A stretch of 64,000 nt of DNA from Gemmatimonadota bacterium (GTDB lineage: Bacteria; Gemmatimonadota; Gemmatimonadetes; Gemmatimonadales; Gemmatimonadaceae): positions 1 through 64,000 of the forward strand of contig VHBP01000005.1 in assembly GCA_016871915.1 (NCBI GenBank), given 5' to 3'. Of the stretch, positions 2,050 through 55,086 are shown in pieces (positions within the stretch are counted from its first letter, which is position 1; the number at the start of each line of letters is the position of its first letter). Under the pieces are notes generated by a model. That model saw only the letters and a list, made by a program, of their open reading frames with translations, was not told where the DNA came from and made no database searches. The translations under genes and the position numbers were made by a program.

Positions 2050-2680
2050 CTGCCACTTTGTGCCCCTGAATCGAGAGCCGCCACTTGGGATGCGCCAAGC
2101 AGTACGCCACCGCCGCGGCGGTGTTTGCCGCGAGGTCGGGACCGTCCATCGGCTGTAATAGGAAGTGGCGGAACCCGAGCCCCTCGAACCGCTCCGGCAT
2201 CGCCTCCGCCTGCGGGAAGACGAGTTTGAGCTCGTCCCCGGTGGTCGCCACCAGCGGGGCGTCCGCCTTGGGGCTCACACAGACCCAGTCGATCCCCGCC
2301 GGGACCGGCTGCGTCCCGTTGGTCTCGACCGCGACGTCGAACCCCTTGGCCTGGAGCGCGGCGACGGCGGCCGCATCCAATTGGAGGAGGGGCTCCCCCC
2401 CGGTGCAGACCACCAGCCGCTTCCCGCTGGCCCCTTCGGATCCCGTCGGCCACCGAGACGCGACCGCCTCGGCCAGCGCCTCGGCCGTCGCGAACTTGCC
2501 GCCGTCCGGCCCCACCCCCACGAAATCGGTGTCGCAGAAGCGGCAGGTCGCCGTCGCCCGGTCCGCCTCGCGCCCCGTCCAGAGATTACACCCCGAGAAC
2601 CGACAGAAGACCGCCGGTCGCCCCGCCTGGATCCCCTCCCCCTGCAGGGTATAGAAGATCTCCTTGACGGTGTACGTCAC
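2039..2680 (-). CDS. queE: 7-carboxy-7-deazaguanine synthase (radical SAM)
   Basis: Radical SAM enzyme converting 6-carboxytetrahydropterin to 7-carboxy-7-deazaguanine in preQ0/queuosine synthesis. 213 aa. Near the N-terminus FYTLQGEG (9-16) is the substrate-pocket motif. Cys31, Cys46 and Cys49 give the CX14CX2C spacing typical of QueE rather than the standard CX3CX2C, ending in [16 protein letters not shown] follows. The GTG at 2680 is chosen because it overlaps the queC stop as GTGA, and the protein then begins right at the conserved [14 protein letters not shown]. QueC, the next enzyme, is upstream and translationally coupled; queD and folE are not in the window. Confidence 0.93.
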
Positions 2681-3381
2681 GCCGGCCGTCCTCGCGCCTC
2701 GGCGAACCCCTTCGCCCGAAGGGCGCACGCATCGCACCGACCACAGGGGGTTCCGTCCCCCTCAGGGTCGTAGCAGCTGATCGTCTCGTCGTAGTCCACG
2801 CCCAAGGCGAAGCCGGAGCGGATGATGTCGGCCTTGGAGCAGTCGATCAGTGGGGTGAGGATTCGCGTGCGGCTCGTCCCCTCCACCCCGGCCTTGGTCG
2901 CGAGGTTCGCCATCTGCTCGTACGCGGCGATGTACGCCGGTCGGCAGTCGGGGTAGCCGCTGTAGTCGAGGGCGTTCACGCCGATCAGCAGGTCCGTGGC
3001 CCCGAGCACCTCCGCCCAGGCGAGCGCGAAGGAGAGGAAGATCGTGTTCCGCGCCGGTACATAGGTGATCGGGATCCCCTCATGCATCGCGGCCGCATCG
3101 CGGTCCTTGGGCACCGCGAGGTCGGCGGTGAGCGCCGAGCCGCCGAAGAGGCGCAGGTCGATGTCGACCACCACATGCCGCGCCACCTGATACCGCTCGG
3201 CGATCCGCCGAGCCCGATCGATCTCGATCCCATGCCGCTGGCCGTAGCGGAAGGTCAGCGCATTCACCGCGTAGCCGGCCTCGGTGGCGAGGGCGAGGAC
3301 CGTGGTGGAGTCGAGTCCCCCGCTCAGGAGGAGGACGGCGGGGGTCCCCGCCGGGACGGCGGGCAGGGTCGCGAGGGGCAT
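2677..3381 (-). CDS. queC: 7-cyano-7-deazaguanine synthase
   Basis: ATP-dependent ligase converting 7-carboxy-7-deazaguanine to preQ0, the step after QueE. 234 aa, the usual length. The PP-loop SGGLDS is at residues 20-25. Four cysteines near the end (203, 213, 216, 219, in [17 protein letters not shown]) form the zinc site of the family. Its stop overlaps the queE start by four bases (GTGA). It sits 45 bases after aguA in the same direction and probably belongs to the acnA-to-queE run. Confidence 0.95.
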
Positions 3382-3426: not shown

Positions 3427-4512
3427 CTATTGTGTCGTCGCCGCCGGCTGCTGCTGCGTCAGACAGTGCAACGTCCCAAGCCCCCAGACGAGATCCACCG
3501 CGTGGATCCCGACGATCTCCCGCTCTGGGAAGCACTCGGCCAGCGTGTTGAGCGCGATCCGATCATTCGGGTCGTTGAAGGTCGGGACGATCACCACCCT
3601 GTTCGCGATATAGAAGTTCGCGTAGCTCGCCGGGAGCCGCGTCCCATCCATGATCACCGCGCGCGGATAGGGGAGGGTGATCACCTGCAGCGTCTCACCC
3701 CGCGCATCGGTCGCTCGCTGGAGCCGATGGCGGTTGTCGAGCGACCTCGCGTGATTCTCGTCCGCGGGGTCCTCCTCGTGCGCCAGGACCACGACCCCTG
3801 GTGCGACGAAGCGCGCGATGTCGTCGACATGTCCATGCGTGTCATCCCCGACGCACCCTTCGCCCAACCAGATGGTCTTGGTGATTCCCAGCTCCGCGGC
3901 GAAGGCGCGCTCGTAGTCCTCACGCGTGAAGCCGGGGTTCCGCACCTGCACATCGGTGAGGAGCCATTCCTCGGTGACGAGGATCGTGCCGAGGCCATCG
4001 GTCTCGATCCCGCCCCCCTCGAGGATCAGGCGCCCGCGCCCGTCCTGCCGCTGCGGCTCGGTACGCGCGATACCGGTATGGTCGGCGATGAACGCGCCGA
4101 TCCGCGCATCGCGCGCGAAGTTCTCGTACTTGGCCCAGGCGTTGAATCCCCAGTTGGCCCACCGCACCGAGCCATCGGCGAGGAGCACGCCAGTGGGCGC
4201 CGAGTCACGCAACCAGACCCGATCCGACGGACATTGATGCAGATGGATGCGTGATTCGCGGACCTCGTGCATCCGCAGACAGTGCCACGCCTGTTCCTCG
4301 GTGGCCTCGTCGTGCACGAGGATGTGCACCCGCTCATGCGCAGCGAGCGCGCGTGCGATCTCGGCGTAGACCCATGGGATCGGTCCGAACTTCCCGGGCC
4401 AATCAGGCTCATGATGGGGCCACGAGATCCAGGTGGCGTCGTGGCGCTCCCACTCCGCCGGCCAGCGCACCCCAGCGGGGCCGACCGGCGGGCGCTGCCC
4501 CGCGCGGTTCAC
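3427..4512 (-). CDS. aguA: Agmatine deiminase
   Basis: Hydrolyses agmatine to N-carbamoylputrescine and ammonia, a member of the guanidine-modifying family. 361 aa, typical length. Visible signatures are PAEWERHDATWISWPH near the N-terminus, the DTHGHVDD motif in the middle and the catalytic cysteine at about 350 in GLGTLHCLTQQ. The GTG at 4512 overlaps the stop of the upstream amidase gene as GTGA. The neighbour carries out the next reaction, so the pair forms a complete agmatine-to-putrescine route. Confidence 0.93.
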   Translation of the reverse strand: MNRAGQRPPVGPAGVRWPAEWERHDATWISWPHHEPDWPGKFGPIPWVYAEIARALAAHERVHILVHDEATEEQAWHCLRMHEVRESRIHLHQCPSDRVWLRDSAPTGVLLADGSVRWANWGFNAWAKYENFARDARIGAFIADHTGIARTEPQRQDGRGRLILEGGGIETDGLGTILVTEEWLLTDVQVRNPGFTREDYERAFAAELGITKTIWLGEGCVGDDTHGHVDDIARFVAPGVVVLAHEEDPADENHARSLDNRHRLQRATDARGETLQVITLPYPRAVIMDGTRLPASYANFYIANRVVIVPTFNDPNDRIALNTLAECFPEREIVGIHAVDLVWGLGTLHCLTQQQPAATTQ

Positions 4513-5459
4513 GACCCGAGCCAGCGGTTCAGGATCGGGCTATACGCGTCGATCCGGCGATCGCGCAGGAAGGGCCAGTTCCGCCGCGTGTATTCGATCA
4601 GGCTCGGATCGCAGGTCGCGATCAGCGTGGTCTCACCCGTCTCCGCCTGCGCCATGTATCGCCCGTACGGATCGCAGATGAACGAATGCCCGAAGAACTC
4701 GAGTCCATCGGTCCCCGCCTCGGGCTCGAACCCCGCGCGATTCGGCGCGGCGACGAAGACCCCATTGGCGATCGCATGCGCACGCTGCGCGGTGCGCCAG
4801 GCATCGACCTGCGCCGCCCCCCACTCGGCCTTTTCCGCCGGATGCCACCCGATCGCCGTCGGATAGATCAGGAGGTCGGCGCCGAGGAGGGCGGTGATGC
4901 GCGCCCCCTCCGGATACCACTGATCCCAACAGATGAGGACGCCGATCGTCGCGTAGCGCGTCTTCCACACCATGAATCCCGACGCCTCGGCCTCTGGACC
5001 GCGCGCGCCCTTCGGCTGCACCGAGACACCGGCATCCCCGGGGGCGAAGTAGTACTTCTCCTCGAAGAGCGGGTCGTGCGGGATGTGCATCTTGCGATAG
5101 AGCCCGAGCAGCGCGCCGTCGGCGTCGATCACCGCAGCGCTGTTGCGATAGACGCCCGGGGCCTGCCGCTCGTAGAACGGCACGACGAGCACCACCGCGA
5201 GCTCCTTCGCCACCGCCTGCAGGCGCGTCACCGTCGGACCGGTGACCTCCTCCGCGAGATCGAAGCGACTCGCATCGAGCGTCTTGCAGAAGTAGGGGGC
5301 GTTGAAGAGCTCCTTCAGGCAGATGACCTGCGCCCCCCTCGTGTGCGCGTCACGGATCCGCCGCTCGGTGGCGACGAGGGTCGCCTCAGCGGTGGACTCC
5401 ACCCCGTCCTGGATCACCGCGACGGTGAAGGGCGCCCGCACGCGCACGGTCGTGCTCAC
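4509..5459 (-). CDS. aguB: N-carbamoylputrescine amidase
   Basis: Nitrilase-superfamily amidase releasing putrescine, CO2 and ammonia from N-carbamoylputrescine. 316 aa. The Glu-Lys-Cys triad is visible as Glu50 (LKELFN), Lys123 (YRKMHIP) and Cys177 in LICWDQWYPEGAR, a string characteristic of this subgroup. The frame is open further upstream, but the GTG at 5459 is preferred: it overlaps the peroxiredoxin stop (GTGA) and gives the family's usual N-terminus. The aguA gene is coupled downstream in the same way. Confidence 0.93.
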   Translation of the reverse strand: MSTTVRVRAPFTVAVIQDGVESTAEATLVATERRIRDAHTRGAQVICLKELFNAPYFCKTLDASRFDLAEEVTGPTVTRLQAVAKELAVVLVVPFYERQAPGVYRNSAAVIDADGALLGLYRKMHIPHDPLFEEKYYFAPGDAGVSVQPKGARGPEAEASGFMVWKTRYATIGVLICWDQWYPEGARITALLGADLLIYPTAIGWHPAEKAEWGAAQVDAWRTAQRAHAIANGVFVAAPNRAGFEPEAGTDGLEFFGHSFICDPYGRYMAQAETGETTLIATCDPSLIEYTRRNWPFLRDRRIDAYSPILNRWLGS

Positions 5460-6016
5460 TTCCCGCGCGCCTTCTTCACCGCCGCGCCGAGCTCGGTGTA
5501 GGCGTCCGCCGAGAGCTCGCGGAAGGGGCGCATGATATGCTGGATCCGCCCATCCGGGCCGATCACGAAGACCACCCGCTTGTAGAAATTCACGGCAGGG
5601 AACTTCACGTCGTACTTCTCCCCGAGGATCCCCTCGGTATCGGAGACGAAGGTCTGTGGGAACTTCTTCTCCGCCGCCCAACTCTGGAGGGTGGAGATCT
5701 CGTCGGTGCTGATGGCGAGCAGCGTCACCCCATCACCGTTGTTGAAGAGCGTGGCGTACTGATCACGGTACGCCTCCATTTGTGCCGTTCAGCCACCGGT
5801 CCTCGCCTTCGGGAAGAAGGCGAGGACGACGGTCTGCCCGCGCAGACCGCTGAGGGTGATCGGCTTGGGCCGGAGGCCGTCCCGCGTCGCCGCGGGAAGG
5901 GTGAAGTCGGGGGCGAGGTCGCCCACCTTGGGGCCGCCATCCTGCGCCGCCAACGCCCCGGGGGCGATGAGGGCGACGAGGCCGCGGAACGCGTGCCGCA
6001 TGAAGGAGGATGTCAT
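5456..6016 (-). CDS. Peroxiredoxin, predicted selenoprotein (in-frame UGA at residue 76)
   Basis: AhpC/TSA-type thiol (selenol) peroxidase, probably periplasmic: residues 1-25 look like a signal peptide ending ALAAQ. 186 aa if UGA is read through. TGA at 5791-5789 lies exactly where the peroxidatic cysteine belongs: FFPKARTGG-U-TAQMEAYRDQ, which is PXXXTXXU of the family motif PXXXTXXC. The catalytic arginine equivalent is near 147 (YKRVVFVIGPDG). The frame downstream is intact to 5456 and coupled to aguB by GTGA. There is no cysteine anywhere, so it would be a 1-Sec enzyme. A 7-bp hairpin 14 bases after the UGA fits a bacterial SECIS. The alternative is a pseudogene by Cys-to-stop mutation. 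Alternative start ATG at 6001. Confidence 0.75.
5753..5774 (-). promoter_or_regulatory. Candidate bacterial SECIS hairpin
   Basis: On the mRNA strand GGCGTAC (5774-5768) pairs perfectly with GTACGCC (5759-5753) around an 8-base loop CGTGATCA. The stem starts 14 bases after the UGA and the loop 21 bases after it. A G occurs within the first two loop bases, as expected for bacterial SECIS elements recognised by SelB. It lies inside coding sequence, as such elements do. SelB binding is inferred. Confidence 0.65.
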
Positions 6017-6055
6017 AGGGTGAAGAGTGTCTGGCGCGGGCGGTCGCCGCAATGA

Positions 6056-6955
6056 TCAGGGGGTGATCAGTCGCAAGGCACTGGGCACGCTCACGACCTC
6101 TACCTCGGCGCTCGGAGTGCGCCGGAGCTCGCCATCGACCTCGATCCAGGGCGCCGATTCACACCGCACGCGGAATGTGGTCCCCCGCCGATGGGTGCAG
6201 GCGGGGTCGCCGAGGTGCCTGCCACGGAGGGCGGAGAGGAGGAGGGGGAGGCGTCGCCAGCGCGGGACGTCGAGGAAGGCGACGGCATCGAGGAGCCCAT
6301 CGTCGATCCGCGCGCCGGGGGCCACATGGAAGGCGCCACCGAAGAGCGCCCCGTTGGAGAAGACGGCGAGGAGGTGCGGGCGCATCGCGCCGTCATCGAG
6401 CGCGAGCGAGAGGGCGCGGTAGCGCACCGCCTCGGCGAACGCCGCGAGGATGTAGCGCGGCGCACCGGGCAGTGGGCGCAGTCGCTCGGCGAAGGTGTTG
6501 CACGCCACGTCGAAGCCGATCCCCGCGACGTTCAGGAACCAGTGTCCACCGATCCGCCCCATGTCGACGCGACGTTCACGGGCTGAACCGTTCGCGAGCG
6601 CCTCGGCAAGTTGGTTCGCCATCACGGCGGGGGCCCCACCGGCGAGCCCGAGATTCTTCACGAAGTCATTCCCGGTCCCCGCCGGGATCAGCGCGAGGCG
6701 GAGCGGGGCACCCGCCGCGGCGACCGGCCCCGCGACATTGGAGAAGCTCCCATCCCCGCCGACCACCACCAGCGTCTCGATCCCCTCGGCGATCGCCTCG
6801 GCCACCACTCGCGCCTCATCCCCTGCGCGTTCGGTGGATCGCACATCCACGAAACCGATCCGGGCGAACGCGGCACGGATGCCAGCAATCGCCCGGGTGC
6901 CGCGGCCCGATCCGGCCGCGGGGTTATAGAGGACGCGGACCGCGCTACCGCCCAC
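6056..6955 (-). CDS. Diacylglycerol/sphingosine-type lipid kinase
   Basis: Cytoplasmic lipid kinase of the DagK/YegS family, phosphorylating diacylglycerol or a related lipid with ATP. 299 aa. Signatures: [12 protein letters not shown] at the start, [13 protein letters not shown] with the catalytic-domain GGDG, and [15 protein letters not shown]. The C-terminal half matches the second domain of the family ([11 protein letters not shown]; the IDDGLLD region). I start it at the GTG at 6955, which overlaps the end of acnA; an ATG further upstream lies inside acnA and would add non-family residues. The exact lipid substrate cannot be read from sequence. Confidence 0.85.
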
Positions 6956-9677
6956 CGGCGAGCTGGCGCAGCACGTACTGCAGGATCCCGCCATGCCGGT
7001 AGTAGTTGAGCTCCTCCGGGGTGTCGATCCGGCTGCGCACCTGGAAGGTGAACGTCCCCTTCGCGCCGACCGCCTTCACCGTCAGCGTCGCGCGCGGCGC
7101 CATCGTGTCGGAGAGCCCCTCGATGGTGAGGGTCTCGAACCCGGTGAGCCCGAGCGACTGCCGCGTCTCACCCGCGGCGAACTCGAGCGGGAGCACCCCC
7201 ATCCCGACGAGGTTCGAGCGATGGATCCGCTCGAAGCTCTCGGCGATCACCGCGCGCACCCCGAGGAGCATCGTCCCCTTCGCCGCCCAGTCGCGCGAGG
7301 AGCCGGTGCCATACTCCTTTCCGGCGATGATGACGAGCGGGGTGCCGGCCTGCTGATAGGCGATCGACGCCTCGTAGAACGAGGTCGGCTCCGCGCCCTC
7401 GGCGGTCCGCGTCCACCACCCCTCCATCCCCGGCGTGAGCTCGTTCTTGAGACGGATGTTCGCGAAGGTGCCGCGCATCATCACCTCGTGGTTCCCGCGC
7501 CGCGCGCCATACGAGTTGAAATCCTTCTTGGCGACGCCGAGCGAGGCGAGCCACTGACCGGCGGGCGACTTCTCCGCGATCGAACCGGCGGGGGAGATAT
7601 GGTCGGTGGTGATCGAGTCCGCGAACATCCCGAGCACCCGCGCCTTCGCGATCGGCTGGACCCCCGGCGGGGTCATCGTCATCCCCTCGAAGTACGGGGG
7701 ATGCTTCACGTACGTCGAGGCATCATCCCAGACGTAGCGATCGCCGGTCGGGGCTTTGATCGCCTTCCACTCGGCGTCGCCACCGAAGACGTCGGCGTAT
7801 TCCTTCTCGAACTGCTCGCGCTTCACCGCGCGCAGCACCGTGTTCTCCACCTCCTGCGTGGTCGGCCAGATGTCGCGCAGGAAGACGGGACCCTTCGCCC
7901 CGACGCCGATCGGTTCCTTGTCGAAATCGATGTCGGCGCGGCCGGCGAGGGCGTACGCCACCACGAGCGGCGGCGAGGCGAGATAGTTGAAGCGCGTCTG
8001 CGGATTCACGCGCCCCTCGAAGTTGCGGTTGCCCGAGAGCACGGCGGCAACGGTGAGCTTCCCGTGATCGATCGCCTTGCTGATCGTCTCCGGGAGCGGT
8101 CCCGAGTTCCCGATGCAGGTGGTGCACCCGTAGCCGACGATCTGGAAGCCGAGGGCGTCGAGCGCGGGCTGCACGCCCGCCCTGCCGAAGTAGTCGCGTA
8201 CGACCTTCGATCCTGGCGCGAGCGAGGTCTTCACCCAGGGCTTGGAGGTGAGCCCCGCCGCGACCGCCTTCTGCGCGAGGAGCCCCGCCGCGAGCATCAC
8301 GCTCGGATTGGAGGTGTTGGTGCAGCTCGTGATCGCCGCGATCACCACAGCACCGTCGTGCAGCTCGAACTCGCTCCCGCGATGCGTGGTCTTCACCGCC
8401 GCCGGGGTGAGGTCGACCGCGGTCGCCGCCCCGCCCGACTTCGCCGCCGCGGCCTGCGCCACCCGCTCCTTCTCCGCCTTGAAGGCGTCGGCGTAGGTGG
8501 GCTTCATCTGCGTGAGCGCGATCCGGTCCTGCGGCCGCTTCGGCCCCGCGAGCGAGGGGACGACGGTCGAGAGGTCGAGCTCCAAGGTGTCGGTGAAGAC
8601 AGGGTCCGGGGTCTCCGCGGTGCGGAAGAGTCCCTGCGCCTTGGTGTACGCCTCGACGAGCTTGATCTGGTGTTCGCTGCGCCCCGAGAGGCGGAGATAC
8701 TTGAGCGTCTCCTCATCCACCGGGAAGAAGCCCATCGTCGCGCCATATTCCGGCGCCATGTTCGCGATCGTCGCGCGGTCGGCGAGCGCGAGCCCATCGA
8801 GCCCCGGGCCGTGGTACTCGACGAACTTGCCGACGACCTTCTTCTTGCGGAGCATCTCGGTGCAGGTGAGCACGAGGTCGGTCGCGGTCGCGCCGAGCGG
8901 GAGCTTGCCCGTGAGCTTGAACCCCACCACCTCGGGGATCAGCATCGAGACGGGCTGGCCGAGCATCGCCGCCTCGGCCTCGATCCCGCCGACGCCCCAG
9001 CCGAGGACGCCGAGGCCGTTGATCATTGTGGTGTGCGAGTCGGTGCCGACGAGCGAATCGCAGTAGACCGTCGGGGTGCCATCCTCCTCGCCGACGAACG
9101 CGACCTGCGCGAGGTACTCGAGGTTCACCTGGTGACAGATCCCGGTGCCCGGCGGGACGACGCGGAAGTTGCGGAGCGCGGTGCCCCCCCAGCGGAGGAA
9201 CTGGTAGCGCTCGCCATTCCGCTCGTACTCGAGCTGCGTGTTGAGGAGCATCGCCGCCTCGGTGCCGTACTCGTCGACCTGCACCGAGTGGTCGATCACG
9301 AGGTCGACCGGCTGGAGCGGGTTGATCCGCGCGGGATCGCCGCCCAAGGTCGCGATCGCATCACGCATCGCCGCGAGGTCCACCACGCAGGGGACGCCGG
9401 TGAAGTCCTGCAAGAGGACGCGCGCGGTGCGGAAGGCGATCTCCTGGTCGACCGGCTTGGTGACATCCCAGCGGGCGAGTGCCTCGATGTCGGCACGCTT
9501 CACGAAGCCGCCGTCCTCGTTCCGGAGGAGGTTCTCGAGCAGGATACGCAGCGAGAAGGGGAGGCGCGCGACGGTGTTCCCCGGGAGGGTGCTCAGTGCG
9601 CCGAGCCGATAGTAGGTGTAGGAGCGGCCGTCGACGGCGAGGGTGTCGCGGCTCGAGAAGGAGTTATGGTAGGACAT
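6945..9677 (-). CDS. acnA: Aconitate hydratase
   Basis: Interconverts citrate and isocitrate in the TCA cycle, cytoplasmic, with a [4Fe-4S] cluster. 910 aa, typical of the AcnA/IRP type. Cluster ligands sit in [16 protein letters not shown] and [28 protein letters not shown] lies in the mobile C-terminal domain. The frame is open far upstream to 10145, but ATG 9677 ([13 protein letters not shown]) gives the family N-terminus. It is the first gene of the minus-strand run to queE; upstream is a 106-base divergent spacer. Confidence 0.96.
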
Positions 9678-54612: not shown

Positions 54613-55086
54613 ATGGCGGCACCACTGATCGGGAAGAAGGCCCCGGCCTTCAAGATCCAGGACGATGCGGGAGAGACGGTGACCCTCGCCTCCCTCAAGG
54701 GAGAGTGGGTCGTGCTCTTCTTCTATCCGAAGGACATGACGTCGGGGTGTACCGTGGAGGCATGTGAGTTCCGCGACGCGCTCCCGAAGTTCAAGAAGCT
54801 CGACGCCAGGGTCTTTGGCGTCTCTCCCGACTCGGTGAAGTCCCACCAGAAGTTCAAGGCGAAGGAAGGGCTCACCTACCCGCTCCTCTCTGACCCCGAG
54901 CACACGATGCTCGAGGCCTACGGCGTCTGGGTCGAGAAGTCGATGTACGGTCGAAAGTACATGGGAGTCGAGCGCACGACCGTCATCATTGACCCCGCGG
55001 GGAAGGTCGCCCAGGTCTTCACCAAGGTGACGCCCGCGGGGCACGCGGACGGGGTCACCGCATGGCTTCGCGCACACGCGGGGTGA
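54613..55086 (+). CDS. bcp: Thioredoxin-dependent peroxiredoxin (BCP/PrxQ)
   Basis: 157 aa cytoplasmic peroxidase. Peroxidatic Cys46 in FFYPKDMTSGCTVEACEFRD, with Cys51 placed as the resolving cysteine of the alpha-2 type. VERTTVIIDPAGKV carries the conserved Arg. It starts five bases after argF, and its last 32 bases overlap the 3' end of the convergent BNR-protein gene. It uses ordinary cysteine, unlike the peroxiredoxin at 5.5-6.0 kb. Confidence 0.94.
   Translation: MAAPLIGKKAPAFKIQDDAGETVTLASLKGEWVVLFFYPKDMTSGCTVEACEFRDALPKFKKLDARVFGVSPDSVKSHQKFKAKEGLTYPLLSDPEHTMLEAYGVWVEKSMYGRKYMGVERTTVIIDPAGKVAQVFTKVTPAGHADGVTAWLRAHAG

Follow-up and report, generated by a model that had tools for sequence, protein, structure and literature searches.

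In a window of 64,000 nucleotides from a Gemmatimonadota genome (contig VHBP01000005.1 of assembly GCA_016871915.1), we find a peroxiredoxin gene whose frame contains a TGA at the position of the catalytic residue (Table 1). Mechanical ORF calling splits this gene into 6052-5789 and 5779-5456, and the original prediction described two frames that join into one peroxiredoxin; the gene is indeed one, but its halves share the same frame. Between 6016 and 5456 on the minus strand lies a single unbroken frame with one internal TGA at 5791-5789, and read-through gives a product of 186 residues, MTSSFMRHAFRGLVALIAPGALAA/QDGG...VVLAFFPKARTGG-U-TAQMEAYRDQYA..., with the active-site context PKARTGG-U-TAQM. 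As predicted, the TGA falls exactly at the Cys of PxxxTxxC, the part downstream of it is intact, the protein contains zero Cys residues, and its terminal TGA overlaps the GTG start of an aguB-like gene in a GTGA (AAGTGAGC).

Table 1. Features of the peroxiredoxin locus, with positions in the window
Feature	Position	Strand	Basis or remark
Diacylglycerol/sphingosine kinase-like (dagK-like) gene	6056..6994	-	about 40 nt upstream, same direction
Sec-peroxiredoxin gene	5456..6016	-	186 aa + terminal TGA 5458-5456; PF00578 E=1.8e-27
Probable secretion signal peptide, residues 1-24 (...GALAA/QD)	5945..6016	-	sequence composition, by eye
AhpC/TSA (PF00578) domain	residues 31-161 of Sec-peroxiredoxin		profile match
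In-frame UGA = Sec 76, peroxidatic position of PxxxTxxU	5789..5791	-	homologue alignment
Spacer between UGA and SECIS stem, 14 nt	5775..5788	-	
Bacterial SECIS hairpin	5753..5774	-	paired in TGA forms, compensatory basal pair, loop codon choice
aguB-like N-carbamoylputrescine amidase	4509..5459	-	GTG start overlaps peroxiredoxin stop
aguA-like agmatine deiminase	3427..4512	-	sequence assignment
queC-like gene	2677..3381	-	downstream, same direction; sequence assignment

We take the aguA-like, queC-like and diacylglycerol/sphingosine kinase-like genes to belong to the families whose names they carry here. The linkage of prx, aguB and aguA recurs in many Gemmatimonadota loci, and many relatives also have the kinase-like upstream neighbor. 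Relatives repeat the full order dagK-like, prx, aguB, aguA (3427-6994 in the window), and an insert of about 1-1.5 kb often separates prx from aguB there. The link with putrescine synthesis is therefore old, and the conserved order suggests that it is a functional one. The peroxiredoxin gene may also be co-transcribed with aguB, and translational coupling of the two, if it exists, could make AguB drop when selenium is scarce.

Homologs and selection

A match to the peroxiredoxin was found in all 61 genomes searched (the source genome and 60 relatives). The original prediction had proposed aligning residue 76 with its homologs, and these carry TGA or Cys exactly there: in the close family, 40 genes have TGA at this codon, 22 have Cys (TGC/TGT) and one has Ala (GCC), and in a non-redundant set of 128 genes the numbers are 84, 43 and 1. 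The larger set combines the close family with a scan of a genome collection, whose matches are by title Gemmatimonadota bar one or two. In a phylum sample of 395 genomes, 313 contained the family at E<=1e-30, with exactly one TGA in most of those among the best matches listed; the Sec peroxiredoxin gene is found across the whole phylum Gemmatimonadota. The single Ala form (L073, G058:C159:1824-2303) has an otherwise intact frame and is possibly a non-peroxidase derivative.

Relatives that are 92%, 90% and 75% identical carry TGA at the same codon. Decay in relatives, which would speak for a broken gene, was looked for; instead, dN/dS 3' of the TGA is 0.19 and 0.10 for the 92% and 90% identical relatives and 0.26 for more distant congeners, values which indicate that the region downstream of the TGA is under purifying selection.

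The SECIS hairpin

The predicted hairpin, GGCGUAC-CGUGAUCA-GUACGCC, starts 14 nt past the UGA and has a 7-bp stem (5774-5768 / 5759-5753) and an 8-nt loop (5767-5760); the G noted among the first two loop bases is the second. All seven stem pairs are formed in 83 of the 84 TGA genes versus 2 of the 43 Cys genes, and none of 20,000 shuffles matched the observed 83, the largest reaching 59. The basal pair of the TGA genes is G-C in 54, C-G in 22, U-A in 6 and A-U in 1, with an A-A mismatch in one, and the tree implies seven or more switches of its type. When the 5' partner belongs to an Asn, His or Asp codon, it is C with GCG and T with GCA (both Ala) in 28 of 28 cases (Fisher p=2.7e-6); these third-base changes, which track the G or A of the Ala codon, are synonymous. 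The loop codons of the TGA forms are Arg CGT (79/84) and Asp GAT (83/84), against the bias of the same genes, in the rest of which CGC, CGG and GAC dominate; Cys forms mostly have CGC GAC at the loop position. Because the covariation is synonymous and the Cys forms are unpaired, the RNA itself appears to be under constraint, and the conserved peptide AYRDQYA could contribute partly to the conservation of the hairpin.

Folding had been proposed as a check by the original prediction. Conservation and covariation support the element, but its energy is unexceptional in a 45-nt context (z = -0.71). The 22-nt hairpin alone gives z = -3.2, and a search of Rfam returned no family matching it. Given the weak 45-nt energy and the lack of an Rfam family, the case for a SECIS rests on comparison and covariation. 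We regard this comparative evidence as decisive: judged by its alignment across homologs, the hairpin is a conserved, covarying bacterial SECIS.

Selenocysteine machinery

The source genome (2.07 Mb in 120 contigs, 98.75% complete) was searched for selA, selB, selC and selD, as had been suggested, and contains all four: selA (E=1.6e-138), selB (312 bits; cut-off 242), selD (384 bits; cut-off 125), and a tRNA-Sec (selC) with anticodon TCA/UCA that adjoins selD on contig G000:C29. ARAGORN identifies the second-best match of the tRNA-Sec model (50.3 bits) as a tRNA-Leu, and only the match on C29 was confirmed. The selD gene (L008, about 2440-1408 (-), G000:C29, with the tRNA-Sec directly downstream) has an in-frame TGA of its own in the N-terminal motif RCAG-TGA-ASK (RCAGUASK), at the site of the catalytic Cys/Sec in other SelD proteins, and likely encodes a selenoprotein.

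In counts tallied by hand from the homolog and SelA searches, SelA is present in 37 of 40 TGA-form genomes versus 3 of 16 Cys-only genomes (p=1.4e-7). Of the three TGA-form genomes without detectable selA, G006 and G018 have SelB and a TGA-bearing SelD, and a TGA-bearing SelD was found in G048, which is 80% complete; given these other Sec markers, we attribute the missing selA in the three MAGs to assembly gaps. In the four Cys-only, SelA-less genomes checked (G003, G005, G012, G057), SelB and SelD were likewise not above cut-off. Among seven AhpC-TSA-family matches in the source genome, only the peroxiredoxin at 5456-6016 has a TGA. Since most genes near the locus end in TGA as their normal stop, the genetic code is not altered overall.

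These observations bear on two other explanations of the internal TGA. The assembly is fragmented and a lone in-frame stop often means decay, so that one might suspect a pseudogene, or a TGC or TGT misread as TGA in sequencing or assembly. We consider this vanishingly improbable, since the TGA is shared by most homologs across independent assemblies, selection persists downstream of it (dN/dS 0.10-0.26), and the SECIS is retained only alongside it; the recurrence of TGA at this codon in independent genomes refutes both a pseudogene and a sequencing error. It could also be argued that the halves are two functional genes, each being callable as an ORF and codon 80 being an ATG, or that a changed code or programmed read-through inserts another amino acid such as Trp. 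A split at this point would, however, disrupt the Trx fold inside the active-site helix, and the alternative residue in homologs is Cys, never Trp. With a complete Sec machinery in the genome and TGA ending most neighboring genes, either version is very unlikely; homolog codons, selection downstream of the TGA and the neighboring stops led us to reject both a code change and a split gene. All computational checks that the original prediction had suggested came out in its favor. We conclude that the apparently split gene is one intact peroxiredoxin, almost certainly with an active-site selenocysteine at the UGA.

Protein family and predicted function

The read-through protein matches the whole of PF00578 (profile positions 1-124) with 96.2 bits against a cut-off of 26, and contains the catalytic set P69, T73, U76 and R147. 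In the homolog alignment (A1), Arg147 and Gly75 are invariant and Thr73 is nearly so. An AF2 model (pLDDT 89.7) places residue 76 close to where the helix 74-85 begins, and the best PDB matches listed by Foldseek are peroxiredoxins. Against the PrxU equivalog NF040737 (cut-off 270 bits) the protein reaches 51.5 bits, and against the BCP/PrxQ thiol peroxidase NF006960 (cut-off 140 bits) it reaches 66.5 bits; because both scores lie below the equivalog cut-offs we assign it to a separate subfamily. Model confidence is low over N-terminal residues 1-24, and most homologs have an N-terminal hydrophobic stretch that commonly ends in AQ; by this composition, the protein is probably exported to the periplasm. 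Lacking any Cys, a resolving one included, it would be a 1-Sec enzyme that needs an outside reductant. A second, ordinary PrxQ/BCP peroxiredoxin with a normal Cys (FYPKDMTSGCTVEACEF) is encoded at 54628-55014 (+) in the window.

Thiol oxidoreductases are frequent among secreted Trx-fold proteins, certain peroxiredoxins also serve as chaperones (PMC6590489), and the read-through protein has a weak ResA match; instead of a peroxidase, it might thus be a Sec-containing thiol-disulfide oxidoreductase of the ResA/TlpA type or a chaperone. We think this unlikely, since the AhpC-TSA and BCP models score far above ResA, no CxxC or UxxC is present, PxxxTxxU with an invariant Arg147 is the peroxiredoxin catalytic set, and the fold search points to the same family.

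Proline loss and exchange of Sec and Cys

The proline of PxxxTxxU is described as highly conserved in Sec peroxiredoxins (PMC13188914), and the source-genome protein retains it. This residue, seven before Sec, has changed to Phe, Tyr, Val, Ile or Ser in no Cys form (0 of 43) but in 48 of the 84 Sec forms (L037, L040, L043-L045, L047-L052, L054-L057, L059, L060, L062, L063, L065, L066, L068 and many of L121-L163). A BCP-like Sec peroxiredoxin, L082 (FYSKDDTPGU), has lost the proline too. On the best tree, built without the active-site columns, Sec and Cys have switched about ten times, with at least two switches on well-supported branches. When Sec was compared with proline loss in a phylogenetically independent way, only two contrasts were well supported (starred), too few for significance. 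Several genomes encode a Cys form and a Sec form in tandem (L033, L027, L098, L099, L103, L105, L106, L107).

The proline is lost only among Sec forms, which suggests that Sec can accommodate active-site geometries incompatible with Cys, and the Pro-less relatives are possibly a new variant of Sec peroxiredoxins. We give about even chances to a broader reading, in which a phylum-wide, exported 1-Sec family has had its catalytic architecture relaxed by Sec, with loss of the proline, and has swapped Sec and Cys repeatedly. If this is true, nature has run an experiment in this family on what a peroxidase gains from selenium. Within a genus, a single site holds Sec in some genes and Cys in others, sometimes in adjacent genes of one genome, so that the reasons for which bacteria retain or abandon selenium in a peroxidase can be tested directly.

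Discussion

We propose that the locus almost certainly encodes a 1-Sec peroxiredoxin, probably periplasmic, in which Sec 76 is inserted via SelB and the hairpin. During translation, the hairpin 14 nt downstream of the UGA would recruit SelB with Sec-tRNA(Sec), so that Sec enters at residue 76, towards the N-terminal end of the active-site helix. Its selenolate, together with Thr73 and Arg147, would then reduce H2O2 or an organic hydroperoxide, itself becoming selenenic acid. In a protein without a resolving Cys, the selenenic acid would be re-reduced by an external thiol, perhaps a small thiol or a periplasmic thioredoxin-like protein, as in 1-Cys peroxiredoxins. Since standard ORF calling cuts the gene in two, it is easy to overlook this phylum-wide antioxidant selenoprotein, whose hosts are bacteria of soil and fresh water.

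That Sec peroxiredoxins occur in other bacteria, as the original prediction stated, is well documented: those with TxxU are an established selenoprotein family (PMC13188914, PMC1794560), of which 12 members were counted in 2006 (PMC1794560) and which current reviews list (PMC13188914, PMC9312934). This family (PF00578/COG1225; NCBIfam PrxU NF040737) was first described in Eubacterium acidaminophilum, and the Gemmatimonadota protein shares with it the AhpC/TSA domain, Sec at PxxxTxxU and a SECIS just 3' of the UGA (PMC13188914, PMC9312934). Unlike PrxU, it belongs to another subfamily, is apparently secreted and has no other Cys. The available portions of the selenoprotein papers PMC1794560, PMC13188914 and PMC9312934 do not mention Gemmatimonadota, and a search of the open-access literature, as far as its texts were available, found no report of selenoproteins specifically in this phylum. 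What is new is an apparently secreted, single-Sec, phylum-wide subfamily of the known Sec peroxiredoxins.

Related genomes contain two more groups of Sec peroxiredoxins, one BCP-like with TPGUTxEAC (L079-L083) and one with TPGUNRQ (L084-L085); a Cys at +5 is present in L079-L081 and L083, and absent in L082 and in the TPGUNRQ group. The BCP-like proteins L079-L081 and L083 are Sec peroxiredoxins of the same phylum matched by the same query, but they differ from the subfamily described here in having a Cys five residues after Sec, another downstream hairpin and only ~30-34% identity. BCP/PrxQ proteins (NF006960; PDB 2ywn, 3drn, 4g2e) are the nearest in sequence and rank with the nearest in fold; unlike them, the Gemmatimonadota protein has Sec for Cys, Glu at +5 instead of the resolving Cys, and a putative signal peptide. 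Peroxiredoxins of the Prx6 type are longer than PrxQ-like proteins, and the Gemmatimonadota protein differs from them in being short and PrxQ-like, with Sec instead of Cys. It resembles these 1-Cys enzymes (for example AnPrx6, PMC5719442) in its single catalytic chalcogen without a resolving Cys, and because of this shared feature both would depend on an outside reductant.
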